This document shows positions 4,671-52,237 of a DNA stretch of 64,000 bases, one piece after another. This stretch comes from Bryum argenteum (taxonomy: Eukaryota > Streptophyta > Bryopsida > Bryales > Bryaceae). The notes beneath the pieces are model-generated. The model did not search any database. It was not told the DNA's origin and worked only from the letters and a program-made list of their open reading frames with translations. The position numbers and the translations under genes were made by a program. Position 1 is the first letter of the stretch, and every line of letters begins with the position of its first letter. The DNA is taken from contig CM073324.1 in NCBI GenBank assembly GCA_037043015.1, positions 22,956,097 to 23,020,096 on the forward strand, written 5' to 3'.

Positions 4671-4674
4671 TAGT

Positions 4675-5958: not shown

Positions 5959-6060
5959 CTCCCTCTGTCCCATTATGATTTTCTGGTAGGTTCTCTCAAA
6001 TCTACCTTTGGAGGTAGATTTGAGAGAACCTACCGGAAAATCATAATGGGACAGAGGGAG
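5959..6060. mobile_element. Stowaway-like MITE (102-bp near-perfect hairpin)
   Basis: Starts CTCCCTCTGTCCCATTATG and ends with its complement CATAATGGGACAGAGGGAG, with TA on both sides. The two arms of about 49 bases differ at a single position. The CTCCCTC end and TA target duplication are the known hallmarks of Stowaway (Tc1/mariner) MITEs. Confidence 0.9.
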
Positions 6061-6980
6061 TAGTACTTCTACTTGTGGTCAAAGCTTTGTACTTTATTCA
6101 TTCTTCAGAAGACTATGACGTAAGCTTAGGTCACGTACAGACTATCGTACATTTGACCACAGACATAAGCAGTACACTACATTTTATCTAATAAAATGAT
6201 ACTTTCGTTTGATGTGTTTCATCCTTCCGTGGAATGTTGGGTTTTTCATTAAAGCCATACAGCTTTGATTATCACAATATATCTTAGTAGGGCTTGTTTG
6301 AGAAACCTCATTGCCTTATCTATATTGTTTTGTTTCAATCGTAGCCTCCCATTGTGCGATACATGGCTTTTAAACGCTATTCTATGTAATAGGCCTATTG
6401 CCCAAAATTGAAAGGATTGGGATAGGTAGGTTGGGATTGTACATAACCTTGTAGAAGGTTGCAAGCTCTTCATTGTTTGGTTCATTCATGATGCCCAAGT
6501 TCAAAGAATGCACCAATTCATGACACCCAAGTCCAAAAGATGCCGTGCTCCGATTTTGGGCTGCCCGTTACAGACCCGGCGTTTAAGGGTTAATCCAATC
6601 TCTTTCACACTTTGCACATTTTCCAAACTTGCTTTCCACATCCACTACCCAAACTTGATTTCCAATCTCAATTTCATGCAACTATTACGCACGTTGCCTG
6701 AAAGATGGATCTGCCAATCTTGAGTACAGAAACCTGACAAAACACCATACCCAGTCTGACTAGATCACATGAACGATGAAGGTGATGACGGATAAAACTA
6801 CGTCATCTGCTCGGCATGATTGTATGAGTCAAAGTTAAAACTTAAACCTGTCAACTGATCACACAAAAATGATGAAGCTCATACTCAGGGATTGTCAGCT
6901 CCCAAGGTGAAAGCATCGTCATCGAGCAGATGAAATCAGATATTGGGTCAGAAACATGAAAGCGGCTTGATAGCATCTTA

Positions 6981-15620: not shown

Positions 15621-16161
15621 AAAGACACATCTAAAAAAAAAAGTAAAATCTCAAATTTTGGTGAATTTTTGAAGTTTCTGTGTTTTGATCAATTCTGAGC
15701 AGATTTTGAGGGTAAATGATCATATACTGCAGTTTGGGCAGATTTTGAGAATAAAGGAGCATATACAGCAGTCTGAAAGATTTTGGGCAGATTTCAAATA
15801 GTGTTTTCAAACTTGGATTGCAAATATCTTTTAGAGTAGGAAGAAGTTTGGAGCATGACATAACTTTTCAGAAACCTATGGAAACACTCTCGAACCTACA
15901 ATAGTTTCAACTTCATGCCATCTTGACCAAAGCCTAATCGGCCCAAAACGGGCCTCTTGAAACTTAAACCCTCGCTTTATACCATCATCACAGGGATACC
16001 AACAATGGCCAACATGGTACTCGAGCACTCAACTCGGAATCTGATTTCAGTTGTTCTTGATAGCGAAACACATCTATGGTATCAATCACGAGATTCGGGA
16101 ACTCCAGCACTCGTTCAAGAGACTAAGACTGCAAAATTGGCTACGATTCGATGAGTGCCTC

Positions 16162-20333: not shown

Positions 20334-22280
20334 ATGGCCAGGGGACCGTGGAGCACCGTGCTCTTGCTGCTGTTGGCGTCCACGCTTCTTTTGCAAGCCT
20401 TTGGTACGCGTTTCTCTTGCTTTTTATCGATCAGGGTTTTACTAGGGTTTGGATCGTGCTCTCTGGTGCCATTGATGGTGCAATGCGAGTAGGAGACGAT
20501 TTCGGAGTGCGTACAATTTGTTAAGCATGGCGCACTTAGGAATTGCATGTTGTCATTGTCATGCGTGGGTAATCCTGGATGAAAGGACTGTGTGCGAGCT
20601 CGCTGGTATGTGGCAATGCGATGGTCTGATTGCTTGGGTTTGCAGTGACGCCAGTTCTGAGTAGCGAAGCTGAGGGTGTTGATGCATCAGCGAAGAGCGA
20701 GAAGGATGTGGTGGATGAGCCTGTTCCGGAGAAGGTCGTGGAAGCTAAATTGACACCCGCCCCGGGGATCAGCACCTCCGCATATTTCCCTAAGAATATC
20801 GGCAAGGGTAAGTTAACTGGCTTCTTCACGAATTGAAAGGACTGCGCATTGTCATTTCTTTCAAGCATCCTCGGAGTTTTAGTTTGAAAGTTTCTGGTCT
20901 ACTGTGGAGAGTGACAGTCGTTGTTGTGCTGGTGTCGTTGTCGGGTGTGTACAGTGGTGAAAGCAGGAGAGCCTACGATGATCGATATCGATATCAACAA
21001 CGATGGTGAGCATTTCGCTCTACATTTGAATTGCCAGTTGTAGGTGGTTGGAAGTTGCTCTTTTGGATATTCTCTAATTAACTGGAAAGTGTCTAGAGGA
21101 TTGCTCCTTTGAGTCTGGATTGAAAGCATGAGTTAACTGGGAAAAGTGTATGCACAGGTGCTGCTCCATTGACTGTAGCTTACGCCCGTGCCACTCTGCA
21201 CCTTCTACATGACCACCGTCTGATCGTCCAAAACTTTACGGTCAAGGTACGTCTTTTGCAACGCCCTCGAGGGACTGGCTACTAGAGAAATCGACTACTA
21301 GTTCCGATTTGGTATTTTAGATGCAAGCTTCTTTGAATTCCGTGTTAAGGCTTTTAAGAGTTTGTCGAGGAGAGCTTAGAATGTCGCGTGTGCTGGGTGG
21401 ATGACAGGAGGGTGGTCCCTCCGTGATGAGCGGCAGCAAGGCGTCCATCAATTACTTGTTCAGCATCAACAAGTTCCTGCAGGTGCGGCGTGCTCCGACT
21501 TCAATCACTTGTCGAGAGCTTGTGGAGAGAATGAACAGTTCCACTTCGTTAGTTGATTGTGATGAAGGATGCTGGACACTGAAAGCATTTTAGAAGAGGG
21601 CTGTAGCAGATGTAAGTGTGGTGGTAGTGATTAATCAGAGGTTGTTCAGGGTAATCGTTCTACTCCATTCGGGTCTCAAATGTGGGGGTGGGTTGTAAGT
21701 GACATTGTGGGTGGGTGTTGCAGCCAGGAAGCTACGACTTGGTGGGGCACGTGGTGTACGAGGTGGATGGCAAAGCACACAGGAGCGTGTTCCACAACGG
21801 CACGATCGATGTGGCGGAAGCGGGGTACTTGCCGAAGGGCGAGACGATTTTCCTGTCGCTGTTCGGGTTGGGGTTGCTGGGACTTCTGGGAATGTGGACG
21901 TACTCGAAAGTGCAGGAGTCCATCAAGGTAAAGCACTGGTTTCCACGAACACAGGGTATGGAAGTAGGATGTGGGGCATGAGAGGCGTGACCAATGGTGG
22001 TGTGTGGGTGTGAGTGCAGAAGATGAAGAGGAGCGGCAAGAAAGTGGAGACGGGTACGCGCACGAGCAGCGACGCCGCAGCGGCGAGCGAGTGGCTGAAG
22101 GTGAGTTGAGGGCAATGAGAATGAGAATCGTATGGTATGAAAGAAGTGAGAGTGTGAACGGGGGTGTTTGATCGTGTTGTGCAGGGGACATCGTTCAACC
22201 AGAAAGCATCTCGGAACCTGGTACAGCAGAGGAAGGCACGGAGGACGAAGAGCACTGGGTCAGGATCAATGAGTTCATAG
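20334..22280 (+). CDS. SSR1: Translocon-associated protein subunit alpha (TRAP-alpha / SSR1), copy B
   Basis: Eight exons: 20334-20403, 20646-20807, 20955-21005, 21158-21246, 21408-21482, 21724-21927, 22020-22100 and 22185-22280, giving 275 residues. The signal peptide is MARGPWSTVLLLLLASTLLL. The lumenal domain includes NFTVK and a second NGT glycosylation site in exon 6, followed by one transmembrane helix and a lysine/arginine-rich cytosolic tail. The gene is intact and encodes the same protein type as its head-to-head partner at 16162-18353. Exon 6 is identical to the partner's at every one of 204 bases, while exons 1-5 have diverged. Similarity continues a short way past the stop codon. 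Confidence 0.93.
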
Positions 22281-23639
22281 AGGCACTCATTGAATCGCAG
22301 CCAATTTTGCAGAGTTCTCTGAAGTGTTGGATTGATCATGTGCAAAGCTTTCTACAGTCTTTGCATTGAGGCTGTAAATTCTGGTTGACAGCCACCGAGC
22401 GTGTCTTGTTTTAGCGGGATCTGTGGATGCCCTTTGGCACTGACATTACTGAATAGAGAATTATGTGGCTTTGTGGCTTGTGGCTTTGGAGAAGATTTGT
22501 TTACTATCTATCCCTGTGAGTTGGAATTATCATTTCTCTGGATTTATATCAGAAGTTGCAAGTCAAGGTTGTGGGAATCAACATCCAACGTCAACGTCAT
22601 TGGTGTCATTTGACTCTTTCGAGGGGTCAAGTGTAGTACAGCCAGGGTTCGTGGTATAGGCGAACAAGACTTTCAACTAGCATTCCTAATGTTTGACATT
22701 GTTTATATTGAAAATATAAAACTTGAATCCAATGTAGAACGATTGAATGGTTGTGAAAGATTTGCTTACAAGGGTTACAATGGACACTTAGTAATCTTAA
22801 GGTAGATAGACCCATTCTCGACCGGTGACCAATAACTGATCAAGCCCAATTCCTAGATTTTGAAAGAACAGATGTATCTCATTTGTATATTTGAGCATGT
22901 GATCGGCTTTAGGTTCCAAGCAACTTTTCACTTTAAACAATTATAACTATTTGAATAATGCAAATAAAATTACGAAACTTTTTGCATTCAACAAGAACCT
23001 TATGTTTGCACGCATGAAAAATTCTAAAAAAATATATATACCTTAATATCATGTGCTAAAATCCTTAAGTGGTCGGTTATAGGTGCCTCTATCTTAGTGT
23101 ATTGTCGTTTTGGGTACCTAAACAAGTTCAATTTTTGCAACTTTCTGTATCTACCGCCTTGCAATGAATTGCAAGCTGTGCGTGCAATGTGATAACTTCG
23201 CGAACACATTTCCAACTGCATTCACTTCTTTTCTGCATTGCATGTGTCTATTTGGAGAATTTCAACAACAACATATTTTCATCAAGTTTGATGGAAATGG
23301 TAAACTTGTGCAATGAATGATGACGATCGTGACATTGCTCAATTGTGGATGAAATATGTTTATTCACATGTGATCTTGATTGTTGAGTGTTGACGATCCA
23401 AGCCATGGGTTGTAGTGCTCTTAGGGAGGTTGCTCCCGTGGAACTTCATTGACAATTCATAGTTGCATATCTCTTGTTGAGCCAGAAAGTCCTATATCAT
23501 TGTTGTTATGTCTTGTAGGCATACCATCAAGGGTAGTTCGAACGGACATTATATTCCAAAGAACACCTTACGGGTTAGTATTCTTCGTCTTGAGCAAGAA
23601 ATTACTCTAATCTTGATGTTAAAAAAAATTCAAAAAATT

Positions 23640-24455: not shown

Positions 24456-26929
24456 GGTTTTGTACCTCGAGTGTACTAATTCATCAATTGAAATGGAACA
24501 TTTTTCTCAATCCGCGCTTCTTTTGAGGTCCTTTCACTCGTTTCTTTCTGTATTGTTGTTTTTAGGGTTTGAATGACTTAGGGTTCTGAGGTCCGTCCAC
24601 ATGTTGTTTCGTGTGCTGTTATTTTAGGGTTTGAATCACTTTGGGGTTCGTAGGTGATGAATGAGCTTCTCGCATGATCGATCTTCGTTTAGAAGTCCAG
24701 GTTTATTTGATTGATTAGAGTTGTGTCCTTCTCTCTCTCTGAGTGACCTGCTGTCAGTGTTATCATATCTCATGACTATAACCACGATTGGTATTATGGT
24801 GAAGAGGCTGTGAACAGAGTTTCGTAATATGGTTATTTCAAGTTGAAGAGACGTGCTCATGAAGTTGATTCTCGAGGTCTTTGGCTCGAGCTTGCCATGA
24901 ATTTGGTACCGGGAATTCTTGCTTTGGACTCAAAGCCCTAATTCGTCATTGTAACTGACGCATGCTGAGTTTGTACCACAATGAAATATTTCATTCAGCT
25001 ACTATTGAGGAGAAGAGCTCCTCGCAGAAGTACTACAGTTGTGGTATAGCACGTATGTCCACTTCTTTGAGTAGTATTATCTTTACTGCTCAATAACAGC
25101 ATTCCTCCTGAAGCAGCCGCTGTTCAGTCTTGAGCATTGTATGCCGGACGTCTATAACATCCACAGTTGTGATTGTAATGCTGTGGGTTACGTCGGAAGT
25201 CCACCTCCTTGGTACGTTTGAATGTGGTACATCTGTATACATGTTGATGAAATGTGCATCTAAGTGAAAACCAGAAGCTACACTAAATTGTGCATCTAAG
25301 TGAACACCAGAAGCAACACCAAATTGTCTGCTTAGTGTTGAGAACAGTAAATGTGAAAGTTGGCATGTGTATTCCCAATGTTCATTGGTTGGAATTGCTA
25401 CCCTTGACCTCACCTGTGAGTCATGATATCTGAGGAATATTTTCAAGCATCATCGGTTGGAAGTGATACTCTTGCGTTGTGAGTGTTAACCCTTAAACGT
25501 CATAGCATGCCCCTCGGGCTTGGTTTCCAGTGTATTTTCAGAGGGGCTTGACGTTTAAGGGTTAAGAGTATGGCCGAGAACGCACCTGTGATGTACTCTC
25601 AACCAAGAAAAATATGTGACAATTTTGAAGAGTTTGAGTGCACCGATGTATAAGATATATCAGTGTTCACATCCTTGGTATTACAAAGATGCACTTTATT
25701 TTGTAGAATTCTCCTCTTTGTGGCTCTAATAAATATCCACAGTTTCAAGACTAAGAAAATTAAACTCATATATCAAAATCAAAACTTGATCAAACATAGT
25801 CAAATAAGATATCATCCCAAAACTTTAGTAATGTAGAGGTCCAAGTTAATATGAAATCTACACCATGTCTTTTTCATTAGCAATTGTACTATTATAAAGT
25901 AGAGCACCTACTACTACCAAGTTCCACCACCTAGAGCTCCTATGACACCTATTTGGTTAGGCATTATGGAAATGAACTTCATGATACTCCTAAGGTATAT
26001 CCTCCTTTGCCAAATTAGCTAATGTTCACAATTTGCTTTTCTTTTGTAATGTATTTCTTTCAGTCTCATTGCTTCCTCACGTTCGCTTAGAGATTGATGT
26101 CAAGAAAATTGGTGGCCATTAAATAATGTTTTGTACATCATTGCACACATAAGTTCCAACATACACAATATTTACAATCTCACAGTCAAACTTTAATCAA
26201 AGAATTCTTAAAAAAGATACATATTACAATATCTTTGACAAATTTTCCCTCACAGATTTTCTAGGATAATTATGTTTGCAATTAACATACTTTCCAAGAA
26301 AGTACTCACATTTGCAAATACTCTCAACTTCAAACTTCTTTCAAATCTCATACTTTAGACCAGAGATAAGCTCACTGCATTCTTGATGCTGAATACTGGA
26401 TTGAGTTATAAACCTGATCGGGTTGTTATGCATTGACTATGGAGTTCATTCATGGAAGTTTGATGCGCGTTGAAGATACGACGGGCTGGCGAAGAGCAGA
26501 TTTGGGTGCTGATACTGGAGTGCTTCCTGTGGAGATGGAGAGATCACAGCTTGTTGCTCAGTACAACGAATCTGCTGCAGGTATGAAGCTGATACAGGTT
26601 GTTTGTTCAGAATGTTCAGTTCTTACACTCGTATGAACCAAGTGGACATTTAGGTTCCTTTCCATGTAGTGTAACTGATGCAATCAGTCCCTCTCCCCTA
26701 GTAGAATCATGTGTTGTCACTCTGCGTTGTTTGGTGATCAGATCACACCTCGAAGTCCATTTCTGTCAGTTTGATGGGCGATGGAGATATGACGATGGAT
26801 CGGCAAAGTGCAGATGAACTTGGAAGGCTGAAAATCTGTTCACCTGGCGAGCCGAAAGCAGGCAGGATGTCTGATGATACCAACATAGACTTGCTCTGAT
26901 CCTCCTGATTATTCTCCTGATGATCATGC
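24456..26929. other. Intergenic region up to the copia insertion
   Basis: No gene is supported. Contents: three AGGGTTT motifs in the first 200 bases, a short tandem pair near 25253-25327 (unit about 37 bp, GTGCATCTAAGTGAA...), and a 72-bp TTAA-flanked mini-element at 25490-25561. The rest is AT-rich without recognisable structure. Confidence 0.6.
25490..25561 (+). mobile_element. 72-bp TTAA-flanked mini-element, copy 1
   Basis: Ends CCCTTAAACGTC and GACGTTTAAGGG are perfect inverted repeats, flanked on both sides by TTAA (25486-25489 and 25562-25565). A second copy at 49205-49276 in the opposite orientation has the same length and differs at only 3 of 72 positions. CCC...GGG ends plus a TTAA duplication are the piggyBac signature. 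Confidence 0.85.
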
Positions 26930-27341
26930 TATTAGAAAATATGCTGCTGTCTCGGTAGCACAGCCCATGACCATTGTACGGGTGAAGTTCACAGCATGGC
27001 ACCGTTACAGCAACAGCATGGCACCGTTACAAGCATGCACCGTTAGAACTCTTGGTGGTAGCATACAAGAACATGATTAGCCTTTTTTTCCCGCTTAGCC
27101 AAGTCCATGGTATTTAGCCAGAGTGTTGCCATGGCTTGAATTATCTTTTGTCTGTTGAGCGTCGTAGTGGTACTAGCGTGCAGAGCTTTAGCTAGTATAC
27201 TGTAGCAATGGCCGTGTACATGTGAGGCTATCATCAGAAGCCGTGTTTGGGCTTTAATACACCGAGGAGAGTTGATGGTAAAAGTCACTGTGTAAGAGTC
27301 TGAGTTGTGATTGTGTGTATGACTCTTCACGTACTCTAACA
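26930..27341 (+). repeat. 5' LTR of the copia element
   Basis: 412 bp, beginning TATTAGAAAATATG and ending ACTCTAACA. Near-identical to 31990-32401. Contains a short internal duplication around CAGCATGGCACCGTTACA. Confidence 0.96.
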
Positions 27342-27353
27342 GGTTATGGGCCC
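27342..27353 (+). other. Primer-binding site of the copia element (initiator Met-tRNA, internal)
   Basis: GGTTATGGGCCC abuts the LTR. It is complementary to GGGCCCATAACC around the anticodon of plant initiator tRNA-Met, not to its 3' end. This points to priming by a half-tRNA, as known for Drosophila copia. Confidence 0.7.
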
Positions 27354-27652
27354 CAGCCTCTAGCTTCCAAGAGGCTATCCTTGACTCAATTTTTTCTTAG
27401 TTTGTCCAAACTCAGAAGTTCTTTGGAATCATCCTAGTATCAGCGGAGAGTACTGCTTTCTTGAGAGGATCTTTCATGTCAAGTGAGCGTGTCACTTGTT
27501 TAAGTTTGATAAGGTTTCTAGATGTCAGTGGAGAGTACTACTGTCTAGTGTAAGTACTGCTGCATGAAGCTTTACCGTTAAGTCCAGAGTTCTAGAATCA
27601 TCATAGTAACCTTTCACCAAACAGTGGGAGCAATCCTATCGTCATCAGAGTC

Positions 27653-30600
27653 TTGAACACAATGGCAGAATATAGTAGTAGGAGCGAAGCTGGTCATATC
27701 CAGGCTTTCAACGGAGATAAATATCACATTTGGTCCTTCCAGATGCGTGCCCTGTTCCTTGGGAAGGACATTATGGGAGTCGTCGACGGATCCGAACCCA
27801 AGCATGATGAAACCGATGCAACAGCATTGGCAGCTTGGGTAAAGAAAGATAGTCAGGGGTACTTCCTCTTGTCCCAAGCGCTTGATCTTAAGCGTCTAGA
27901 GTTGGTCATGAGCTGCACCACATCCAATGAGATTTGGCAAATGCTCAAAACCGTACATGACCAGCGAGCTAACGATAATGTTCACAATCTCACTGTGAAA
28001 TTCTTTGCAGCAAAGATGGAGCCAGGCGATACAATCGCATCCTTTCTTGGAAAGATCGAGCTCCTCAAAAGTCAACTTGTCCGCATGGGGGAAACTAGCA
28101 TCACTGACAAGAGTGTCATGGCCAAGGTTCTTGGCAACCTGCTCGATGAGTATGCCTATTTCCACTCATCATGGGATAGTGCTGCAGCAGCTGACAAGAC
28201 TCTCAACAATCTCCTTATCAGATTGATACGTGAAGAAACCCGCATGAAGGAGATGAAAGAGCGCGAGGCATTGGCCTCACCTACGTCAGCATTTGTAGCA
28301 CACGCGAAGCGGGTTGATGGAACCACCAAGCCGACACTCACATATGAGCAACGGCAAGCGCGGAAGAAGGAGTTAGACGACCGCAAGCGCACTGCTGAGT
28401 GTTGGAAATGCGGGAAGGTCGGCCACTACCATCGAGAGTGCAGTGAGCCAGATACGAAGAAAGAAAGTACCGCGCCTGCCTCGAAGAATACCAAGACCGG
28501 TACTAACACAAACCATCGGGCCTACATGGCATCTCTTCATCCTCTTGATGCCACCTCCTGGATAGCCGATAGCGGTTGCACAGAGCATATGACAGATCAG
28601 GAGACCTGGTTTGCTACCTATACGAACATTTCTTCCCAAGGTCGCCTGGTCGAGGGCATAGGAGGTATCAAGCTTCCCGTCATCGGTATCGGTAGAATCA
28701 ACATTCGTACCTACAACGGTCGCCAGTGGGAGACTGCAGTCTTACAAGATGTTCTACACGTCCTTAATCTCGGTAGAAATCTTTTCTCGGTGCGGCGCGC
28801 TGCTTTGCTCAACATCAACACCATTCACACAAAAGACGGCTGCAGGCTGGTGCTGAACGGAGAGACGCTCATCGAAGGAGTAATGGAGGGTACAATGTAC
28901 AAGCTGCTAATTGAAGCCGAACCGATCAAGAAAGCTACAGCTTACGTTGCAAATACTTTTGGTACTGAAACCAAGAAGGGTGCGACACAGAGTCTCGAAA
29001 TTTGGCACCATCGGCTTTGCCATATTCACCATGCGATGGTTCAAAGGATGGCCAGTGAGCAAATGGTTCATGGACTAGAGCTCACCACCGACCAACACAC
29101 TTTCTGTGAAGGTTGTGTCCTAGGAAAGAGCAAGCGTCACGCTTTTCCTACTCACCCCACTTGTGTAAGGTCAACAGTGGCTGGACAGCTTGTTCACACT
29201 GATGTATGCGGTCCCATGTCTGTACCGACAGTCGGAGGTTGTCTTTATTATGTTCTTTTCAAGGACGATTTTACCAGATATACAGTTACCTACTGCATAA
29301 AGAAGAAGTCCGAAGTTCTTGAGAGTCTCAAGAAGTATTCCACTCTTATTACACGAGAGACACGGAATCGTATTCGCGCCATTCGCTCCGACCGTGGCGG
29401 TGAGTACCCGGGAAGATTGTACGTGACTGGCTCGAGGAGCAACAAATCGAACAACAGCTCACCGTGCCTTATACACCTGAGCAAAACGGTACTGCGGAGA
29501 GGGAGAATCGGACAATAATGGAGGCTGTCCGAAGTATGCTGAACGCGAGCAATGTACATCCCAAATTTTGGGGGGAGGCTATCCATACCGCAGTCTATAC
29601 TCTGAACCGATGCGGTACATCGACGTTACCAGATCTCACGCCCTTTGAAGCATGGCATGGTACGCGCCCCTCCGTCTCTCATTTGCGGATCTTTGGTTCT
29701 ACAGCGTACCGACATGTACCGAAAGAGTTGCGCCAGAAACTTGATCCAAAAGCCAAGAAGGGTATCTTCATGGGCTATAGCCTTGTCAGCCAGGCATACC
29801 GAATTTGGTGTAACATCGATAAGAAAATTTACGAGAGTCGAGACGTTGTGTTTGACGAGCACTTGGTCCTCAACGCCGCTGATTCCAGCATACCATCTCC
29901 GAATGCCACGCCGCAATCCATAGTGCTCACCTTGCTTGAGGAGCCAGACCGTATATCACCACCTGTTCCAGAGCAGCTACCGCAGCAGAGTAGCCATGAG
30001 CTCCCTAGCTGCCCCATACCTGATCCAGAGTCAGGACATGATGATCCTACAAGCCCAAGCGGAAGTGGAAGCGGCTCTGAGTTAGAAGCCGATACAACAC
30101 TTGCCCCGTGGGAGGATATCACTCTCCGTGACATCGCACCTCGACGTTGGAGCACTCTAGTTGCTGATATCCCAAGTGATGCTCCAGACGAGATGCTCAC
30201 TCACAGTGCGTCTGTCCAGTCAGTAGCCGCAATGGATCCGCCAGCACCCTATCAAGGACGCAGCAGGCAGCCCACATCGATTTATGCAGATCATTGGGCT
30301 TACGTCGCAGCCGGGGCAACACCCTACAATGCCGATTTCTCAAACCCACAAGAGCCCCAGGTCTTGGTGGTTACTGCCCAATGCCCAAGGGAACCACTGA
30401 CGGTGGAAGAAGCCATGCATAGCCCTGAACGTGATCTATGGCGAACCGCAATGCAAGAGGAGTACAACTCATTGATAGCCAACGACACTTGGTCAATGAG
30501 CTCTCTCCCAACGGGCCGAAAGCTGATCAAGAATAAGTGGGTATTTAGAATCAAATACAATCAGCATGGGGCAATCGAGCGGTACAAAGCAAGATTGGTC

Positions 30601-31971
30601 GCCAAGGGTTTCACACAGAAAGCCGGTATAGACTATCAGGAAACCTTTAGTCCTGTCGTTAAGTTCGATTCAATTCGAACTGTTCTTTCAATCGCTGCAG
30701 CCGAAGATCTCGAGATGGCTCAATTTGACGTTCAAACCGCCTTTCTCTACGGTGATATCAGTGAAGACATCTACATGGCTCTTCCTCTTGGTTTTGAAGA
30801 TCAGTGTGAAGCTGGAAAGGTTTGCAAGCTGCAGAAGGCACTTTATGGTTTGAAACAGTCCAGCCGAGTATGGAACAGCAAGTTTAATGATTTTCTTGTG
30901 AATTACCAGCTCATCCCTTCATCCGTGGACCCATGCGTATACGTGAGTCTCACCTCACCTCGCCTCATCCTACTCATTTTTGTTGATGATGGTATTATTG
31001 TTTGTTCTCACATCGACCGCATCATCCACGCGATCGACTGCATGGAAGGCGCCTTCGTGATTAAGCAAGGCCAGCCAGAGGTGTATGTCGGCCTCCGGAT
31101 TACCAGGGACCGTGCCTCCCGCTCTTTACAGCTTGACCAGAGCCAGTATGTTGCTCGTCTCCTGCAGCAATATGGTTTTGAGAATGCAAACCCCGGCGCC
31201 GTCCCAGCTGATCCTTGCAGTATCCCGGATTGGGTCACGACACTCGACCAACCTCTAGCAGATGGCTTTCCATACCGCTCCAGTGTAGGTAGCTTGCAGT
31301 TTGCAAGCATGGGTACGCGGCTTGATATTACATACTCAGTAAGTCATGCAGGAAAGTTCCTTCAAGCTGCCAAGACCCCCCATGTCAACGTTGTGAAACG
31401 GATTTTGAAGTACCTGCGTGGCACATCCAGCATGCGTATCACGTACTCCGGCGGAGGTCCACAAACCAACCAGCTAATTGCCTATTGCGATGCGGACTTT
31501 GCCGCCGACGTAGATGATCGCAAGTCTCGCTCCGGTTACATCCTCATGCTAAACGGTGGCCCCGTTGCATGGGGTAGTAAGAAATAGACTTGCACGGCAA
31601 CGAGTACCACCGAATCGGAGTATGTTGCTGCACACCATACAAGCCAAGAGATCGTCTTCATACGACAGCTTCTTGCAGATCTTGGCCATCACCAACCCAA
31701 TCCGACTGTCCTGCATAGTGACAACCAAGCCGCCGTTCGCTTGATCCTCAATCCAGAGTTCCACCAACGAACTAAACATATTGATATTCGCTACCACAAG
31801 ATTCGGGAGGAGGTCCACAAACAGGAGCTGATTCCACGTTATATCTCCACAGACAGCCAGTTGGCTGATATTTTAACAAAGCCTCTCCCCCGAGATAAGT
31901 TTGTGCGTCTTCGTCGCCAGATTGGTCTTACTTCGACACCACTAGGTGACAGTCGAGGTCACAGCCCGTGA
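27653..31971 (+). pseudogene. copia gag-pol coding region (broken)
   Basis: Domains in order: a gag-like region, a CCHC zinc knuckle (CWKCGKVGHYHREC, near 28400), the aspartic protease motif DSGCTEHM (near 28570), an integrase zinc-binding HHCC region (HHRLCHIHH ... CEGC, near 29010-29120) and catalytic core, reverse transcriptase with the FVDDG active site (near 30980), and RNase H to about 31950. The region is broken about twice and is described as a fossil. Confidence 0.93.
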
Positions 31972-31989
31972 ACATCCCCCGAGTGGGAG

Positions 31990-32401
31990 TATTAGAAAAT
32001 ATGCTGCTGTCTCGGTAGCACAGCCCATGACCATTGTACGGGTGAAGTTCACAGCATGGCACCGTTACAGCAACAGCATGGCACCGTTACAAGCATGCAC
32101 CGTTAGAACTCTTGGTGGTAGCATACAAGAACATGATTAGCCTTTTTTTCCCGCTTAGCCAAGCCCATGGTATTTAGCCAGAGTGTTGCCATGGCTTGAA
32201 TTATCTTTTGTCTGTTGAGCGTCGTAGTGGTACTAGCGTGCAGAGCTTTAGCTAGTATACTGTAGCAATGGCCGTGTACATGTGAGGCTATCATCAGAAG
32301 CCGTGTTTGGGCTTTAATACACCGAGGAGAGTTGATGGTAAAAGTCACTGTGTAAGAGTCTGAGTTGTGATTGTGTGTATGACTCTTCACGTACTCTAAC
32401 A
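31990..32401 (+). repeat. 3' LTR of the copia element
   Basis: 412 bp. It matches the 5' LTR apart from one noted difference, ends TAACA and is followed by the CATGC target duplication. Confidence 0.96.
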
Positions 32402-33995
32402 CATGCGTGGCTGCGCGATTATACAACCGTCCCAACCCTTTCTGTTGTGACGGACATGTCACAGCTTATATATTGCTCCCCTCGATGGCCCTTCTGATAA
32501 CTACCTGGATGAGATTGGTTTGAGAAACTCTTTAATTGATGCAAACTTATCACTGGAGGTGGAGGACGAGGACGAGGACGAGGTTGCATGCTCCGTTCAA
32601 GGTTTTCTACCAATGCGTCTTCACAAGTGTCAGTTCTCACAAAATCAGTCATTTACTGTACAATGTTGAGGATTAGGAGTAGGGTCCTTTCTCACTGATT
32701 GAGTATTGTATCCAAAACCACACAACAATAAGTGAAGTAAGGAATTTTTTTAAAGCTCACAACACAGAAATAGCTCCGAGTTGAAAGACAAGATTAGGCT
32801 CTTAGGATTTCATTTGGATTTTAGAGTGATATAGAGTGGGGAGAGAAGTGTATGGTACGAATACTTGAAATTTGGATACTTAAATACATGAGTTGATATA
32901 AGAGTACGGAAAGAGCTACCTAACTCCACTACACTACATCTCTAATGTCTCGCTGTTGGTACCTACATGAAGGTCTCTTCACACCCTGCCAAGTCAAGAT
33001 TTGTAGTTGTCAATCATCTGGATTACAATGCAGTCGTTTGCATGATATATGAATTAATAATAGTCTTACAGGGATTCCTCTCTAGAAAGTAGTTTCACCT
33101 TGTATCTGCAAAGAGGGTAGTTTTTGCCGACTTCAAGGCTTTCTGGCAGTTTTGAGCGTAGTCCACTTTAGGGGTTAATTGGTCGACAAAGTCATATGGT
33201 AGATGCATTATAACTTGTGCACATCCATAAAAGACTTACCAACTGTATTAGCTTGTGACGCTTTAGTTTCAAAATCGGTATTGGGAACCATCAATTTTTA
33301 AGGCAAGAATTGCCCTTGTTGTGTGAAATTCCTTTTCATGGGAGATTAAGAAGAATAGTTAGTAACCTTTATATCATGTACCACTTTGGTGACCTAGTTT
33401 GGAGAGCTTTGGCAGAGTGAGTAACTACTCGTTAGTCTAGAACTCAGCTTGTGAGATCAAATCTCATGATTAGTCTAGAACTGAGCTTGTGAGATTAAAT
33501 CTCTGTGCAATTGGGGGAATTGCTAACGAATGGCCACCCCTAGAGCTCCTGAAACTGGAGCCACCGGAAAAATTCTTCCAGGCGGACGAGTCTAAGCCCT
33601 GCTATCGTGCCGTAAGGTTCACTGCCCGTGAAGGGGACAAAGAGCAACAACATGAAGAAGTAGCTAGAGGGGGCGTGACCAAGGCTGCTACGACCTCCAT
33701 GGCTACAGGAGGGTGGCAGCGCAGGGTTGAATGCTAGGGTATAAGAGAGCTCTGGAGAATGTTGCTACAATGTTGGCTCAGAAACAAGGTCAGAGAGATT
33801 AATTGAATGGAGAATGGTAGGGTCCCTTATAGCCCTATATCCTTAGCTTCATTCGCTTTGCTTTATTATATGCTTGTCAACTTTAGACTTTATTACCTAA
33901 CAATTTATGATCACTGTAGAGGAAAACGTTAATATGGTTGAAACAACATATGCATAATGAAGAGAATGTTGTTTCAACCCTCAAGTGTTGTTTGG

Positions 33996-34757: not shown

Positions 34758-34823
34758 GTGCAACTGGTACTATAGTGGAAGTTTATCATAAACCCTAAAC
34801 TTCCACTATAGTACCAGTTGCAC
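34758..34823. repeat. Perfect 27-bp inverted repeat with 12-base loop
   Basis: Arms 34758-34784 and 34797-34823 (start GTGCAACTGGTACTATAG) are exact complements around a 12-base loop. It could be a very small MITE or a transcribed hairpin; nothing else identifies it. Confidence 0.9.
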
Positions 34824-35185: not shown

Positions 35186-35540
35186 TATGGTACTATAGAA
35201 GGCTGTGAAATAAGTTAAGAAGACTAAAAAGCAGTTCTTCCTCATACGTGGACCATCATATCACCCTAGTCAATTCAACTAAATGGGAGAAAAGCACCTC
35301 CCCTAAAAATGGAAGAAAAGGAATGGCGCTAAAAGGTTGGGAGAGTATCCTCCTAACTTAAGAAAGAGATTGACCCGTATTATCGAGAGGGCTTGCCAAG
35401 CCCCTCTTGGAAAACAGGGATACTAAAAAACAAAGGGTTTTGATTTTCATAGGTCAGATGTCTCCAAGTATCATGGAGCCAGTGAGCCACCTTCACGCTC
35501 AAATAAATACGGCTTGGTTGGAGCATGGTGAGAGACTCTT
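35186..35540 (+). repeat. Dispersed repeat, copy A, with an unoccupied TTAA site
   Basis: Matches the reverse complement of 40083-40930 once the 458-bp insert at 40258-40715 is ignored. Shared text includes GATAATACGG, CTCTTTCTTAAGTTAG and the GAGGGCTTGCCAAGCCC core. It has a single TTAA where the other copy carries the tandem elements. Confidence 0.85.
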
Positions 35541-36490
35541 AGTTTGACGAGACTAGGAGGGGTTTAGCAGGGAGCCTTGTTGTTGTAGTGAGATGCTGCT
35601 GCATAGTGAAGGTCACTATGTAGTAACATTAATTAATTAACCTATTGGTCTTTCTTGCCACATGGGCCATGAGTGCGCTTTATTTCGTACGTTTCTAACT
35701 ATGAGGAGAGCCCCCAGCCCTTTTGTACATTTTCAGGGGCAGAAGTAGCAACAAATGATATGGAACAAATTCCTCCCCCAAGACCCCCCGCCCCCAAGAC
35801 CCTCCAGTGGACCCCTCCCAAACCCCTCGGCATTTTTAGGAGCAATTTGCGTCCCGCACTCCACGGCCTCAGTGAGATTTTGGGAGATAGTGATTGATAA
35901 ACCTCATGTTTTGCTCTTTTTTAGCGGCCACACCACCATACTGTTCCAATGACAGGCGGCGCGGCTATAGAAGATGCTCTAAGTAAACAACAACTTTGTT
36001 TAGAAAGAATGATTTTGGACGGCATTCAAAGTTCAGACACACTCATTCAACAACTGAAACTAGAAGTGATTGAATTGAAGCCAGGTCAAAGTATCATAGT
36101 ATGTACAAGTTTAGGACTCGTATCATTCTTTCAAATTATTGTGGTTGTAGCTCCACCACAACAAAAAATTAGGGTTGTAGAAAATCAATTTTTCTTATAA
36201 CTAGGTCTTATAATTAGGGCATGTTTTACACATCATTTGAGGATATTTTACCATTATTTTATTAGCCCATTTAGTCAACAATAAATGTCATTATATAATT
36301 CATCTATTACACCCAATGTAATTTGACAACCTTGGTTCCTTTCTCAACAAGATGCTGCTGCTACTTCTATACAAGTTAGAATGGAGGATTTTACCTGGGA
36401 CAACTCTTGAAGGGTTCTATCTTACATGCTTGCCTTTGATGATCTGTTGCTCCTATCAACTCATGCGAGGTGACGTCATTCCTTCCACTA

Positions 36491-36832
36491 CACAAGAGTT
36501 ATTTATTAGTGTTACGTGGCGATTAGTGTAACAATCAACTTTTGTTAAAGATCACTATTTCTCAACTCTCTTAAGATTATTATTCACTTTGGGTCGCCAT
36601 TGCAATCAGTGCCCCTTGTCTTTTCTTTAAGCCACCAATTGCACCATTTCTAAGATATTCTTCCACTGGCACGAAGGTGAACATGCTCTCACATCTAGTG
36701 TTATGGGTTGACGATTAGTGTTGTAACACTATGGTGACGTGTGATATTTAGTGTTATGGTTTGCAATTATTGTTTGTATTACTAATTAACAGGTTTGCAA
36801 TTATTGTTTGTATTACTAATTAACAACACTTG
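36491..36832 (+). mobile_element. MITE, CACAAGAG family, copy 2
   Basis: Left end CACAAGAGTTATTTATTAG, right end TTAACAACACTTG, flanked by TA. The interior matches copy 3 in the same orientation (AAGATATTCTTCCACT, CATGCTCTCACAT) and copy 1 in reverse. Near the right end a segment of about 34 bases (AGGTTTGCAATTATTGTTTG...) is duplicated in tandem. Confidence 0.75.
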
Positions 36833-39292: not shown

Positions 39293-40257
39293 TTAATTCT
39301 TTTCTACTAGAAAGTACACCCTTCCTAATTTGATATTACCGTCACTTGAATACTTCAAATATAATCAAAATAATATCTAATAAATGAGGAGCTTAGACTG
39401 CTTAGTCCATGTACATTGAGAGAGTGTCAGAAACACAATGCATGTTGCTTTCATTTTCTAAACTCGTACTCACCATGAGTAATTCAAGTCAAATAACTCT
39501 TTAGGTGAGATGCATTGAAGTCTTTGCATACTCCACTATAGTTATATAATATCATAAATATTTCATGATTCAATTCATAACAATCTCACTAACTCACCAA
39601 CTAAATATCAAATTATGAATTTACAACCACCTCAACATGTGGTGACTATACCACATACCACGACTGTCTTAGATTCATAACTACCTTACCACGAGACCAA
39701 ATTGCAAGATATAAATCAACAACTGCCTTTGCATTATTCTAAATGTCACGTAGCCACCTCAAGGCTAGGTTGTACTTTAAGTTCCAAACTCACGGATTGA
39801 CAACAACTTGTGACCACAATATCAAAACAATCATTACAATGTGACTTTAATACAATTGCCTTACCACTTGCTGACTAGACCACAAGGCACAATTTGTGGC
39901 TTACAACTACCGGCTCACCACTTAGCCAAATGTAACCATATAAATATGCAACCATCCTATCACTAGGTAGATCTTATATTTCCAATTCAAGCCTGCTCAC
40001 ACCATGACTAAACTACACGTCACAAATTGTGATTGACAACCACTTCACTATCATATGAATGTAGAGCCAACTTATTACTAAGCACCTCTCTCTCCATGTT
40101 CCAATTGAGTGTATTTATTTGAGAGTGAGAGTGGCTCCCATGCAACTTGGAGACACCCTACCCGTGAAAAATAAAAGCCCTCTGTTTTCTTAGAATCCCC
40201 GTTTGCCAAGAGGGCTTGCCAAGCCCTTCTGATAATACGGACCACTCTCTTTCTTAA

Positions 40258-40482
40258 CCCTTATAAGTCCCTTGGGGATAGTATGTACGCTGTCGTATAA
40301 TTAGGATTTGATACCAACAAGAAACTCTAAACTGGAATCGTAACAGCTCACTAGAACCGCATTAATTCAAATGTCAACTTCTTCTTTGAACTCAAACCCA
40401 TTAAATGTGTGCATTCACTCCAAATACAACCAAAATACGCCGTATTCCACTGGTCGCCACGGCACGCTCAGACCTTTAGGGG
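40258..40482 (+). mobile_element. 225-bp TTAA-flanked element, tandem copy 1
   Basis: Starts CCCTTATAAGTCCC, ends CAGACCTTTAGGGG, flanked by TTAA at 40254-40257 and 40483-40486. No coding capacity. It differs from the adjoining copy at about 11 of 225 positions. Confidence 0.88.
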
Positions 40483-40486
40483 TTAA

Positions 40487-40711
40487 CCCTTAAAGGTCCC
40501 TTGGGGATAGTATATACGCTGTCGTATAATTAGGATTTGCTATAAACAAGAAACTCTAAACTGGAATCGTAATAGCTCACCAGAACCGCATTAATTCAAA
40601 TGTCAACTTCTTCTTTGAACTCAAACCCATTAAAGGTGTGCATTCACTCCAAATACAACCAAAATACACCGTATTCTACTGGTCGCCACGGCACGCTCAG
40701 ACCTTTAGGGG
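40487..40711 (+). mobile_element. 225-bp TTAA-flanked element, tandem copy 2
   Basis: Starts CCCTTAAAGGTCCC, ends GACCTTTAGGGG, flanked by TTAA at 40483-40486 (shared with copy 1) and 40712-40715. Same orientation and length as copy 1. Confidence 0.88.
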
Positions 40712-41774
40712 TTAAGTTAGAAGGATAGTCTACCATCCTTACAGCTACATTCCTTTCCTTCCATTTTTTGGGGAGTTGCTTCTCAGTAGGACTCTATTTA
40801 AATTGAGACGGGGGATATGATGGTGCGGTCCACACATGAGGACGTACTTCTTTTTACTTTTCTTGAATTTTTTCACGGCCTTCTACCGTACCAACTGTGA
40901 AATAATACGGCTCAGTTGGAGCATGGAGAAACACTCTTACTAATCAATGTATTAGGCCCATTCCCATGTAAGACCTGTCACCATAAAATTGAGAGGGTTC
41001 CAAAAACCACGCCATTCCCATCCAACCCTACCCGTAATTAGTTTCACGGGAACCCTTAATTTTTCTAGCGCGTGCCAAGGGGAGGTGGCAAGGCCTTGAA
41101 ATAAAAATAGAACCTGTAATGCACATTTGGAGGCTTTGTTCACTTGTCTTTGCCTCTTTGAGAATAAATAGTGCTTCCTCAAATGGAGTGCCAAATTGCC
41201 AATATTCCCTCAAAAGGAGGACTTAAATTGGATTTTAACTCCTAAAGTCAAAATCAATTAAATCGCAGAAGATTCGAAATTACTTTTTTTCAAGTTTTGT
41301 TTCCAGTAAATGTAAATAAGGTTTTATGACATGATCTCAGCGCTCGAATCTTCAATCCAATTGTTCTTCACATGCTATTTTTGTTGTCAAGAACGACCTT
41401 TGTATTTGAATTTCAGCATACCTGCTTGTGAAAATTCAAGCATTTCTTTAGGATTTATAGGTCGCATGAGGGTAAAAATTGCATGGACATGTTCCTAACT
41501 CACCTAGGAACAAGAATGTGAAAAGTCTTACTTCAAATTTAATCTCAAAATTGCTTTTTGGACTCACAAAAAACTTCAAACCCATTTTGCAGCAAGGCAT
41601 ATAAACTTTTTTTCAACTTTGAATGTTATGATCTCACAATTGCTTAGGAATTTAAAGCTAAGATTTGGCACACACATACATGGCCAAGTTAGGTACTAGA
41701 TCTTACCGTTCCATACTTGAAATTATGTCAAAAGTTGAAAGTTTTCATCTTGATTTAAAAAAGAGTGGTTTTAA

Positions 41775-45607: not shown

Positions 45608-47614
45608 ATGGCGACTGTCCAGGAACCCCAAATTCCTACGTTGGTCATGGAGACAGTCCAAGAACCTGGAGTTCCTGCACTTGGTGGCCCTGTGAACATC
45701 CTCCTGCTCGGGGCATCAGGAGTTGGCAAGTCAACATTCATCAACGCGCTGTGTAACTATCTCACTTATGCTTCTCTCGATGAAGCTGTTAAGGGAGAGC
45801 TTCGAAGTCTCATATACAGCGAATTCGAGGATTCAAACCGTGACAGATCGGGTCATCTTTCCACGAGAAAGATTGTCGTTGGAAAACCTGACAGTGACGA
45901 GGGTGGTGCCAAGAATCAGATTGGTGCATCCTGCACTCAGAAATGTAAGGCTTACACGTTTCCCCTTGAGGGCTGTGGGGAAATTCGGCTCATAGACACC
46001 CCTGGAATTCTGGACACAAGGGGCGTCGATGCGGATGCAGTCAACATGAAACATATACTGGGATTCTTATCCCAATATGAGGTGCTGCATGCTGTGTGCA
46101 TACTTCTCAGGCCGAATGAAGAGAGACTCTTGGCTTCCCTCAAGTACTCCATCGTCCAGCTTCTTGAGAAACTTCACAAAGATGCTTCACCCAACATAGT
46201 CTTCTGCTTCACAAACTCTAGGGCTACGCGTTACAAGATTGGAGGCACTCTCCCTCTCCTTGAGAAGATGCTGAAGGACGTCAAGGTCAATATCGACCAC
46301 AGGAGCGAAAGTAGTATGTACTTCTTTGACAGCGAGGCTTTCAGATATCAAGCCATTTTGAAGCAGAGTGAGGACGCCATTGATCATGAAGAATTCAAGG
46401 ATTATCAAAGGAGCTGGAACAAATCAGCAGAGGAGGCAGAGAGGCTGATAGGTCATATTTTGACATTGGAGCCACACCGCCTCAAGGATACCTTATCCCT
46501 GAATCGTGTTAGAAGCATGCTCGAATCAATTCAGCAACCATTGGGCGTCTTAGCGTCCAACATTCAGGAAAACCTGCAAAAGATGAGGAAGACCAGAGAA
46601 GAACTACAGAAGGGAAGAGGCGATGTAAGCAGCTATGTGAGTAAATTGTTAACTGTGGAAACTTACCAAAGAGCTGTGGCTCTCGAACATCCGCAGACGG
46701 TTTGCACAGAGAAAAAGTGCGAACGAATTGTCTGTCATGAAAAATGCTCTCCCACGGAGACGACTTTGGGTATGCTCGAAAATGTTGAACGATCCTTAGT
46801 CAACAAGATTTCTCGAACCTTCACCGGCTTCAGTATTGCCGACCTTGTTGACCCTGAATTCAAACTGATTCGAAAAGTTTCTGGCTACACAGATGACGAC
46901 GTGTTTTGCACAAATATTTCTGTATCTTCAGGGAAGTGTAGGACTTGTAAGTGTCTCAACAGCAAACATATTCGTGTTCAAATCAAGATGGAGCCTGCTA
47001 CTCGCACGGTCAGGGACGAAAGTATCCAGAAGGTGCTGGACGACACGACTAGCGACATGGAGAAGAAGGAGAGCATACTGAAGATACTAGAGACGAAGGA
47101 GAAGGCTATGCAGGACGAGAACGAAGTTGTGGTCAAAGCAGCTGCGCTCTTTGCTGGCTTCTTAGAGCAGAATTCAATTATCACATACCACAGCGCGATC
47201 TCGGATTACTATAAAGAGGAGATCAAGAAAATGAAGCGCGCTGGCGATCTAAAGCGAGCTGAGGAACTCGATGAGATTCTTCAGCTGTACAACAAGAGTC
47301 TACGCTTTTTCACTGCCTGCCGCGTGAACTGCACCGACGCCGGCGACAGCAACGTCACAGAAGCGATGGTTAACGAAGAGCTCCAGAGGCTCTACAAGCT
47401 GGAGCTGCATGGTCCGCAGTTGAAGGCTTGGATGGACAGTATAGAGAGCGCGGCCGTGTTCGAAGAGAATGTAGCGAAGCTGCGAGGGGAGGCCGTGTTC
47501 AAGGCCCCAGTACTATCCTCCAACAATGCTGCAGGAGTTCACGAAGGCTCGCGCCCCAAGAGCTTACGTGAAAAGATTGCTCTGTACCGCCCGCGCACCA
47601 AAATCTATAAGTAA
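45608..47614 (+). CDS. Intronless P-loop GTPase with a cysteine-rich region
   Basis: One uninterrupted frame of 668 residues, starting at the ATG at 45608. The G1/Walker A motif GASGVGKST is at 35-43. G3 is DTPG at 130-133. A weak G4 candidate, FTNSR at 201-205, replaces the usual NKxD. Residues 366-380 hold Cys366, 371, 376 and 380 with a CHEKC core, and 434-454 hold a second cluster (FC ... CRTCKC ... KH), suggesting zinc binding. Helical, probably coiled-coil stretches follow (about 480-520). The fold resembles AIG1/septin-like GTPases. I recall this GTPase-plus-Cys arrangement as commonest in fungal proteins of unknown function, so transfer is possible. No function can be assigned. The codon and base composition is richer in G+C than the flanks, as expected for a real gene. 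Confidence 0.85.
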   Translation: MATVQEPQIPTLVMETVQEPGVPALGGPVNILLLGASGVGKSTFINALCNYLTYASLDEAVKGELRSLIYSEFEDSNRDRSGHLSTRKIVVGKPDSDEGGAKNQIGASCTQKCKAYTFPLEGCGEIRLIDTPGILDTRGVDADAVNMKHILGFLSQYEVLHAVCILLRPNEERLLASLKYSIVQLLEKLHKDASPNIVFCFTNSRATRYKIGGTLPLLEKMLKDVKVNIDHRSESSMYFFDSEAFRYQAILKQSEDAIDHEEFKDYQRSWNKSAEEAERLIGHILTLEPHRLKDTLSLNRVRSMLESIQQPLGVLASNIQENLQKMRKTREELQKGRGDVSSYVSKLLTVETYQRAVALEHPQTVCTEKKCERIVCHEKCSPTETTLGMLENVERSLVNKISRTFTGFSIADLVDPEFKLIRKVSGYTDDDVFCTNISVSSGKCRTCKCLNSKHIRVQIKMEPATRTVRDESIQKVLDDTTSDMEKKESILKILETKEKAMQDENEVVVKAAALFAGFLEQNSIITYHSAISDYYKEEIKKMKRAGDLKRAEELDEILQLYNKSLRFFTACRVNCTDAGDSNVTEAMVNEELQRLYKLELHGPQLKAWMDSIESAAVFEENVAKLRGEAVFKAPVLSSNNAAGVHEGSRPKSLREKIALYRPRTKIYK

Positions 47615-48899: not shown

Positions 48900-49818
48900 A
48901 AAAATTCCATTGACCCACGAAGCTCAAATGAGGTTTTTGCTATTTCGGGCAGCCTAGATGAAAGGGTTAAAATTAATATCTTTGTCTAAGATTTTTTTTG
49001 GGTACACATTATATTATAATATGTTTTTTTACAAAAATTCATAGTCAAATTGGATCATAATAATTCTTCAATTGAAATTTGTGTTTCTAGGCCCAACTTG
49101 GGACGAAAAAAATAAAAAATAAATCTTGCATTTAACTTTTATTTTATTTATTTATTTATTTGGTGATGGGTTCATTGATTACTGTTTGCATGCTCAGATT
49201 TTAACCCTTAAACGTCAAGCCCCTCTGAAAATACACTGTAAACCAAGCCCGAGGGGCATGCTCTGATGTTTAAGGGTTAACATGACCCCCTGTTGTCACT
49301 TGCGAGTGATTGTAGATGGGCAGCCTCCAAAATTAAGGCATCTGCCTATGAGAGATTTGGTAATTTAGCAATGTTTTGTTCCAAAATTGTCAAAGTTAGA
49401 GATATAAGAATTTTTTGAAAATATTTTTTGCCTAAAAATCACAAACTTGTAGAGGTATCTTATCAACATTCATTTTTTTCTGAACCTAATACAATAAACA
49501 AGATCCATGTCTTACGAGATTGTCATTTTTATACCTTCTTCTGAAAATAGTTTGCATGAAGGTCACAAAAGCATTATGAGTCTTCGAAATTTTGTATAAC
49601 GGTACTCAACTTAGTTATCTATATAAAAAAAATATGACCAAAATGTTCTGGGTAAAAATCTTCAACATTTCCTTTGTACCATGGAGGCAGTGCCTTGTGA
49701 GCAATGCCCCATAAATATTTTGAATAAACTTTGAATGTTACGATCTTGATAAAGGTAAAAAATTGCAGATTTGAGGTTTCAAACTTTCAATCTCCCAAAA
49801 CACAAGGAAAGTTAGGAT
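48900..49818 (+). mobile_element. Decayed TTAA-family element with a nested element
   Basis: The left part (TTTCGGGCAGCCTAGATGAA, then TTTGTCTAAGATTTT) matches the left arm of the foldback element at 41775. The right end AAGGAAAGTTAGGAT adjoins TTAA at 49819-49822. The left terminus is decayed. The 72-bp element 49205-49276 lies inside it. Confidence 0.6.
49205..49276 (-). mobile_element. 72-bp TTAA-flanked mini-element, copy 2
   Basis: Inverted-orientation copy of 25490-25561, same length, three differences, TTAA on both sides (49201-49204 and 49277-49280). It is nested in a larger decayed element. Confidence 0.85.
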
Positions 49819-50006
49819 TTAAACTCCTAATATAATGTTCCGACCTCTTACTAATAGATAAAAAACACAACCTTTTTGAAAGTGTCATAAATGGAATTGA
49901 AGGTAGGACATAGTCATCTCAAATTCTCAATCATAGAATCTTGTTATTTCTATTTCATAAATAGTGATGTGAATCAAATTTGAAGTCACGAGGCCTCATA
50001 GATCAA

Positions 50007-50153: not shown

Positions 50154-50964
50154 ATTGTCATAGAACATAGATTGCAAGACCATAATATTTTTCTACTTAA
50201 GTCTTGTATGTCCTAAATGTCAAAAACAACAATTTGGATAAAGGGTTGTAAGTTTCAAGAGCCATAACTTCTTCATGTGATCTGGACAAAATCACTTAGG
50301 TTGAGTCCCAAATCAAGTTTGAATTGTGTGGTATAGTCTTCAAATTCATAAACAAAAGCATGAACTAATGACATGTATTTTACTAAAGGCAATTTCTTTG
50401 GGGGTTTTCAAATGTGGGGCATGTTTTACCACTGCAAGCCAAATATGTGAAATAAAAAATAGGTTCTCATGACCAAAAAAAAAACAATAGTATAATTCTT
50501 AAATGATTTCCAAAAACTTCCTAGTTGAAGGTTTTCAGATTTGAATAATTTTAAAATTCGATTTGCAATAATGTTCTTACAATAATAGCTATATCTCCTT
50601 CATCCACCATTGCATTTCAGCTTCATTTTCCGAAATGGATTCTACTTAGAGTCTAAATTTAATGACAAGTACTAAATCTTCTAAAAAGTTTTTAGAACTT
50701 GTCATTAATGCGAGATGTTTACAGAAACAGTCTCACTATGCAACAGCTACACAATAATAGGCACCCACAATCCTGAGCACCTCTAAAGAATGGACCAAGT
50801 TTACATTACATTCCTCTCTACGAATATTGGAGTGTACGAACTATATATCAAGTACTCAAGATTCAAACAACGGTGCAAAAAACTTCATTCTTTGAAGATG
50901 ATAGGTTACAAATTCTCCAACACAAAGCTTCGTACATGATCTCTAAGGTTGCTTATCATCTGTA

Positions 50965-51227
50965 CACAAGAGTCATTACTTAGTGTTATGCGGAATTAGT
51001 GTAACGGGTAAAGAAGACTATTTCTCTTAAGATTAGTGTTCACTTTTGGCAATCAATGTACATTGTCTTTTCTTCAAGCCACTGATTGCATCACTTCCAA
51101 GATATTCTTCCACTTTGCAAGAAAGTGTGCATGCTCTCACATTTAGTGTTATGGTCTGACAATGGTTACGTGTGACATTTGGTATTACCAAAATTAACGT
51201 ATATAACACTAATTAACAACTCTTGTG
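50965..51227 (+). mobile_element. MITE, CACAAGAG family, copy 3
   Basis: Ends CACAAGAGTCATTACTTAG and TTAACAACTCTTGTG, flanked by TA. Interior shared with copies at 4364 and 36491. Confidence 0.75.
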
Positions 51228-52237
51228 TATCGGAACTGAAATCTCAACCTTTAGAGGCTTTTCGAAGATTCTTACTGAGGCCCAAGCAGAGAGACGGATA
51301 ATCATCATCCTCGTGCACCGCCAGACCCACAATTGTTGCATTGACACATCGATCTCCCTTAGTGCTACCTCAATAATAAAAACTGATCATGAAAAGCGCT
51401 TGAAAAGAGTTGCTGCTTCCTTTCACCCATCCATGTGAATTTTGATGACGAGCGAAATCAACAGAATACTTGTTACAATTTAAGTACTTGACTAGATCAG
51501 CTGCATGTTCGCCATATATCTACGAAATGCCTTTCGAAGAATGATCTCCACAGAAGAAAGCAAGTGCATATACGAGGCAGGATGCCAAGTATAACATACA
51601 GTTCCTTAAGCAGAATCACAGAAGTGTAAATGTTTTCAGTTTGATTGAGATACTAACGATGAGGGTCCTGGATTTATTGCGAAGGTTGCCATTCCATGGA
51701 CAAATCGAGTGCATTGTGCTAAAACCCGTACCCCTGAAAACAGAGTCGATCGAGCCAGCCACCGAATTGAGTTGTCCTTGGATCGAGGGAGCTGTTTCCA
51801 AGGGAGTTATCGTTTGTGGCGATGGTGAGTTCGTCACTCTCTGGTTGTCTTGAGTGAACTACAAGTAAGTGAAATCAAAACAAGGATGAAACGAGAAGAC
51901 TATTCATCTCAAGTTTGAGTTCTCTACTATGATGATCATAAAGACCCCGAGTCTCCAAAAAGTTCTTGAGTTCACTCTCACTTCAAGTACAGTCACCTCC
52001 TTTTATGGTCCATGTTCCGTCTGTATATTGAGATGTTCTTCTGTGACGGAAGCCAGTTTTGTACTAGAATTGCAAACAACCTAGACTTTCCCTATGTACA
52101 GGTATGTGTTTCAACCGACATGTGCTTTTCTTATTGATATGATCAGGTGTATGGATGGCTCGGCTCTCCTTACACGCAAGCAGTTTCCTCGTATCAATCA
52201 GTACTTCTAGATTGTATCGATTGTGTGCAGATTTTCA

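Follow-up and report, generated by a model that had tools for sequence, protein, structure and literature searches.

Two nearly identical 225-bp units lie head to tail in this plant DNA, with TTAA before, between and after them. Does this arrangement reflect transposition of the piggyBac type, which has been studied chiefly in animals, and how did the two units come to adjoin? The window (the whole stretch analyzed, 64,000 nucleotides) contains further elements with TTAA at their borders, and these bear on both questions. The elements are assigned to three families, A, B and C, and their positions are given in Table 1.

Table 1. Positions of the TTAA-bounded elements, of the repeat that surrounds the A1-A2 dimer and its paralogue, and of single ends within the window
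Feature	Position	Strand	Length	Ends and remarks
A1	40258-40482	+	225 bp	CCCTTATAAGTC...GACCTTTAGGGG
A2	40487-40711	+	225 bp	CCCTTAAAGGTC...GACCTTTAGGGG
Left TTAA of dimer	40254-40257
TTAA common to A1 and A2	40483-40486
Right TTAA of dimer	40712-40715
Host repeat split by A1-A2	40083-40945	+
Paralogue of host repeat	35186-35545	-		empty site CTCTTTCTTAAGTTAG
B1	25486-25565 (TTAAs included)	+	72 bp	hairpin, both ends CCCTTAAACGTC
B2	49201-49280 (TTAAs included)	-		copy of B1, nested in C4
C1	41771-42669	+	891 bp	fold-back between TTAAs, both ends CCCCTAACTTTCCTTG
C2	38343-39296	+	946 bp between TTAAs	CCCCTACAAATCC / CTTCTAAAAATCC; diverged relative of C1
C3	57039-58224	+	1178 bp between TTAAs	CCCCTAAATTTCC / TCCCTAACTTTTC; diverged relative of C1 and C2
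C4	about 48900-49822			TTAAATCCTAACTTTCC at 49822, other end eroded; diverged relative of C1-C3; host of B2
Single end	6560-6593	-		TTAACCCTTAAACGCC
Single end	33145-33178	-		TTAACCCCTAAAGTGG

The A1 and A2 units are identical at 214 of 225 positions without indels, which bears out the preliminary description of two units in the same orientation that are about 95% identical and set among TTAAs. Tandem Repeats Finder gives the array a period of 229, 2.0 copies and 0% indels. The 11 differences (seven transitions and four transversions) are scattered across the unit. The terminal inverted repeats match at 11 of 12 positions in A2, and at only 9 of 12 in A1 because the left end of A1 carries two further changes. 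Neither unit contains a stop-to-stop reading frame of at least 120 amino acids, and strand folding of A2 is unremarkable relative to shuffled sequences (z -1.2). A third copy was not found in the 64-kb window, where the next best match has an E value of 0.14.

The dimer splits a repeat whose sequence aligns with the reverse complement of its paralogue over 345 columns at 78.8% identity. At the insertion point, the paralogue has one TTAA and no insert. When A1, A2 and two of the three TTAAs are deleted, the host junction equals the paralogue sequence CTCTTTCTTAAGTTAG exactly and without a gap, so the relative lacking an insert that had been proposed near 35186-35540 is confirmed by alignment. 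The host repeat has imperfect inverted repeats near its own ends (36 nt, 75% complementary), and TTACTAA occurs on either side of it; for these reasons, it may itself be a transposon, older and of a different type.

Two elements of only 72 bp, B1 and B2, surfaced in an end-motif search that did not require TTAA. This search gave 15 matches, compared with 6.85 +/- 2.88 in shuffled sequences, and the matches include both ends of each element. B1 and B2 are identical at 69 of 72 positions, lie in opposite orientations within unrelated flanks, and are each found between two TTAAs. Their end differs by one base from the left end of A2, and one of the four B ends has a further change. Hairpin folding of the two elements exceeds that of shuffled sequences (z -5.6 and -3.1). 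Because B2 is nested in C4, it is the younger of the two. Removal of B2 and one TTAA from C4 leaves a junction that is free of gaps when aligned to both C1 arms and to C2. At this point C4 reads TTAA, whereas its relatives read TCAA or CCAA, so this second empty site is less clean evidence for the duplication than the first. Adjoining 5-mers, GAGTG and GAGTA, hint at a longer duplication at B1, and this candidate was rejected, as nothing comparable is present at B2.

Family C comprises longer elements of 0.9 to 1.2 kb. The arms of C1 are 88-89% complementary and have the common end sequence TTAACCCCTAACTTTCCTTG. Aligned pieces of the family are mostly 63-77% identical, with a maximum of 83%, and C4 retains its TTAA end on one side only. 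Family C looks older than families A and B. For the two single ends listed in Table 1 (at 6593 and 33178), the best candidate partner in the adjoining 4 kb matches at 6/14 positions, which is not convincing. A lone TTAACTCCTAAAGTC at 41235 and the TTAACCC sites at 48970 and 57927 were left out of the count of element ends.

The preliminary description held that the empty site in the paralogue establishes TTAA as the target duplication. The empty site does not suffice for this, because TTAA is palindromic and one locus therefore cannot separate a 4-bp TTAA duplication from a 2-bp TA duplication: CCC...GGGG between TTAAs at the dimer can be read equally as ACCC...GGGT between TAs. The elements might belong to Tc1/mariner, with TA duplications and ACCC...GGGT ends, or to PIF/Harbinger, with TTA or TAA duplications, and sit in TTAA by chance. 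Judged by the inverted repeats, the 2-bp register is no worse than the 4-bp one (in C3 it gives 10/12 matches, compared with 9/12), and a TA-flanked, Stowaway-like element is located in the same window (5951-6068). However, the other loci speak for TTAA, so the claim stands on a broader footing than the one first given. At NTAACCCYTA sites, N is T in 14 of 14 cases at eight loci, and the base outside the TTAA is variable. With a 2-bp duplication, N would be expected to vary, and such a duplication is therefore disfavored. In all seven two-ended elements, the 4-bp (or 2-bp) register gives 9-12 matches among 12 terminal positions, whereas both 3-bp registers give only 4-7, which argues against PIF/Harbinger (Tourist) elements. 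A chance location of either kind of element in TTAA is thus highly improbable, and a 4-bp TTAA duplication is supported by two empty sites and by the 14 sites at eight loci.

The association of TTAA with inverted repeats was also assessed against all 256 flanking tetramers, by counting inverted repeats with at least 11/12 matches that are bounded by the same tetramer, lie 50-3000 bp apart and contain at least four G/C. TTAA bounds five such pairs in the window, namely, four elements (at 25486, 40483, 41771 and 49201) and one pair within the C1 palindrome; A1 falls below the 11/12 threshold. Among the best 12 of the 256 tetramers, the other 11 together bound 23 pairs. Sixteen of these are within the C1 fold-back, and the remaining seven amount to a maximum of one per tetramer. 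No TTAA-bounded inverted repeat with at least 11/12 matches occurs in 60 first-order Markov sequences.

The end motif itself gives a similar distribution. Exact CCCYTAAM occurs 22 times in the window and is preceded by TTAA in 12 cases and by any other 4-mer at most once, whereas TTAA followed by CCCYTAAM has a mean of 0.02 and a maximum of 1 in 100 first-order Markov sequences. With at least 7/8 matches to the motif, 16 sites preceded by TTAA are observed, compared with 0.91 in Markov sequences (maximum 5), although CCCYTAAM was derived from these same elements, so that the enrichment depends on their discovery and is more a description of the signal than a test. The shorter sequence TTAACCC is counted 16 times, compared with 6.99 +/- 2.51.

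Hallmarks reported for piggyBac elements are a TTAA duplication and terminal inverted repeats that measure 12-19 bp and carry the motif CC[C/T]T (PMC2872659). Many piggyBac ends have CCC as their first three bases, and CCCTT is given as the most conserved motif (PMC10813416). Here, short inverted repeats start with CCC in 14 of the 17 TTAA ends (seven CCCT and seven CCCC), and CC[C/T]T is strictly matched in 7 of the 17. The three ends without CCC are all from family C (CTTC at the right of C2, TCCC at the right of C3, and ATCC in C4). Kolobok-superfamily MITEs, such as T2, offer an alternative, as they likewise have TTAA as their target (PMC9587614), and the diverged end of C4 starts with a purine (ATC). 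However, the termini of Kolobok elements are described as 5'-RR...YY-3' (PMC9587614), and full-length Kolobok copies in Xenopus have AG ends (PMC6004289), in contrast to the CCC...GGG ends found here. Moreover, the cited part of PMC9587614 names only chlorophytes and red algae among plants with Kolobok. A Kolobok origin is therefore very unlikely.

Families A, B and C unite CCC ends with duplication of TTAA and are therefore best read as non-autonomous piggyBac-type elements that were presumably moved in trans, a label based on their ends and target. For A1 and A2, assignment to non-autonomous piggyBac/TTAA-type MITEs is very probable. The view that CCC...GGG ends and TTAA constitute a piggyBac signature had been put forward for the dimer, and the further elements strengthen it.

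Mobile elements of the piggyBac superfamily are cut out and joined at TTAA, and the domain of their transposase is DDE_Tnp_1_7 (PF13843). A transposase of this superfamily, presumably encoded elsewhere in the genome, would recognize the TTAA-CCCYTAA ends, excise the element with TTAA overhangs and join it into another TTAA. As a result, every copy would come to lie between two TTAAs.

No DNA-transposon transposase was found by Pfam (E up to 0.01) in any of the 33 stop-to-stop open reading frames of at least 120 amino acids in the window, three of which were start-trimmed. Matches to integrase cores occur in a copia element only. Since no transposase in these 33 reading frames is linked to the ends, the elements could instead belong to a superfamily, as yet undescribed in plants, whose transposase has converged on TTAA. 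However, piggyBac already fits both the TTAA and the CCC ends, and we assign such a superfamily a very small probability.

Searches outside the window were made with the ends of the elements. An exact 22-mer of the right end has no match in GTDB genome contigs or in IMG/VR, neither of which is a plant collection, and Rfam gives no match at the gathering threshold. In IMG/VR, at least 120 stretches match a 14-mer composed of right-end sequence and TTAA; these were set aside because many chance matches are expected in so large a collection, by an estimate made without a control. Full-text searches of the open-access literature with the end sequences returned no title on plants or DNA transposons.

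The piggyBac assignment is compatible with two origins of the dimer. A second copy might have been inserted into a TTAA bordering the first, or one 225-bp element plus one TTAA might have been duplicated in tandem by slippage or unequal exchange, a process that would account for the dimer alone. Tandem duplication fits the common orientation, the exact 229-bp period and the lack of indels. Also, coral arrays of full-sized piggyBac-type MITEs are ascribed to replication slippage (PMC2872659), and unequal crossover is among the causes proposed for KolobokP multimers (PMC9587614). Against it are the 11 scattered differences, which make A1 and A2 as divergent as the dispersed copies B1 and B2, and the fact that a TTAA at an element border can itself be targeted, although neither point is decisive. 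Tandem duplication thus has not quite an even chance. Insertion into the border TTAA is slightly preferred, because the divergence of A1 and A2 (11/225) is close to that of B1 and B2 (3/72).

Coral CMITEs (PMC2872659) share with the elements described here the TTAA duplication, short inverted repeats that start with CC, the lack of coding capacity and the presence of full-sized copies in tandem. In corals, some alleles are reported to carry the element and others to lack it. The resemblance is one of description, and the elements in the window differ in their plant host, in the small size of one family (72 bp), in the 0.9-kb fold-back of another and in the strict match to CC[C/T]T in only 7 of 17 ends. 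Autonomous piggyBac elements of animals (PMC10813416) also have the TTAA duplication and CCC as the first three bases, but they encode a transposase, whereas none was found in the 33 reading frames of the window. Stowaway (TA) and Tourist (TTA or TAA) MITEs resemble the present elements as short, gene-less elements of plants with terminal inverted repeats, and they differ in target duplication and end sequences (PMC10004981).

The preliminary description considered piggyBac elements to be little described in land plants. A 2008 grapevine survey, in the passage cited, names only five other superfamilies as described in plants by then (PMC2528002). Later papers do, however, list PiggyBac: a 2015 survey tabulates it for every group it covers, including land plants (PMC4438587), a 2024 review gives it as a superfamily of plants (PMC10794571), a 2023 review has it as one of seven superfamilies of angiosperm MITEs (PMC10004981), and a fern annotation contains 1230 copies (PMC6890710). 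Superfamily listings for plants thus exist. The cited portions of these last four papers list PiggyBac without describing the plant elements themselves, and a described TTAA family from plants was not found in the open-access literature; to that extent the earlier statement holds. This kind of element is therefore already known in plants, and it is the density that is notable, with eight elements of three TTAA families in 64 kb.

These elements point to a piggyBac-like transposon system that was once active in a plant. The sequence TTAA-CCCYTAA provides a concrete search key with which the transposase could be found in plants, dated and traced in its distribution, and an order of insertions can be read from the copies that are nested or in tandem. 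The eight elements of the window, their three families of different age and their common end CCCYTAA also suggest, tentatively and with some doubt, that TTAA piggyBac-type elements are a major, multi-generation class of MITEs in this genome, in which border TTAAs serve as targets and so build head-to-tail dimers.

By its content, which includes a copia element, a Stowaway-like element and reading frames that correspond to L27a, fasciclin, cytochrome P450 and prolyl oligopeptidase, the window is plant nuclear DNA; chains of plant ribosomes are among the best PDB matches of the L27a protein. Several other repeats are also present. The copia retrotransposon at 26930-32401 has 412-bp LTRs (26930-27341 and 31990-32401) that are 99.76% identical and shows CATGC as an apparent 5-bp duplication. 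Its reading frames for gag and pol are long, and it is a recent insertion. The element at 5951-6068 is a 118-bp palindrome (91.5%) between TAs with CTCCCTCTGTCCC ends, which we take to be of the Stowaway type. An element of about 270-310 bp occurs in three copies (4362-4672, 36487-36791 and 50963-51229); the ends TACACAAGAGT...ACTCTTGTGTA are both present in two of these, and the copy at 36487 has one end only. An inverted repeat of 1.7 kb (16129-17824 and 20640-22312) has arms that are about 81% identical, and its reading frames of at least 120 amino acids have no Pfam match. A 66-bp palindrome (88%) with arms TGCAACTGGTACTATAGTGGAAGTTT is located at 34758-34823. In the 668-amino-acid reading frame at 45608-47611, the N-terminal part matches a GTPase domain (MMR_HSR1/AIG1), and no Pfam match occurs past residue 203.
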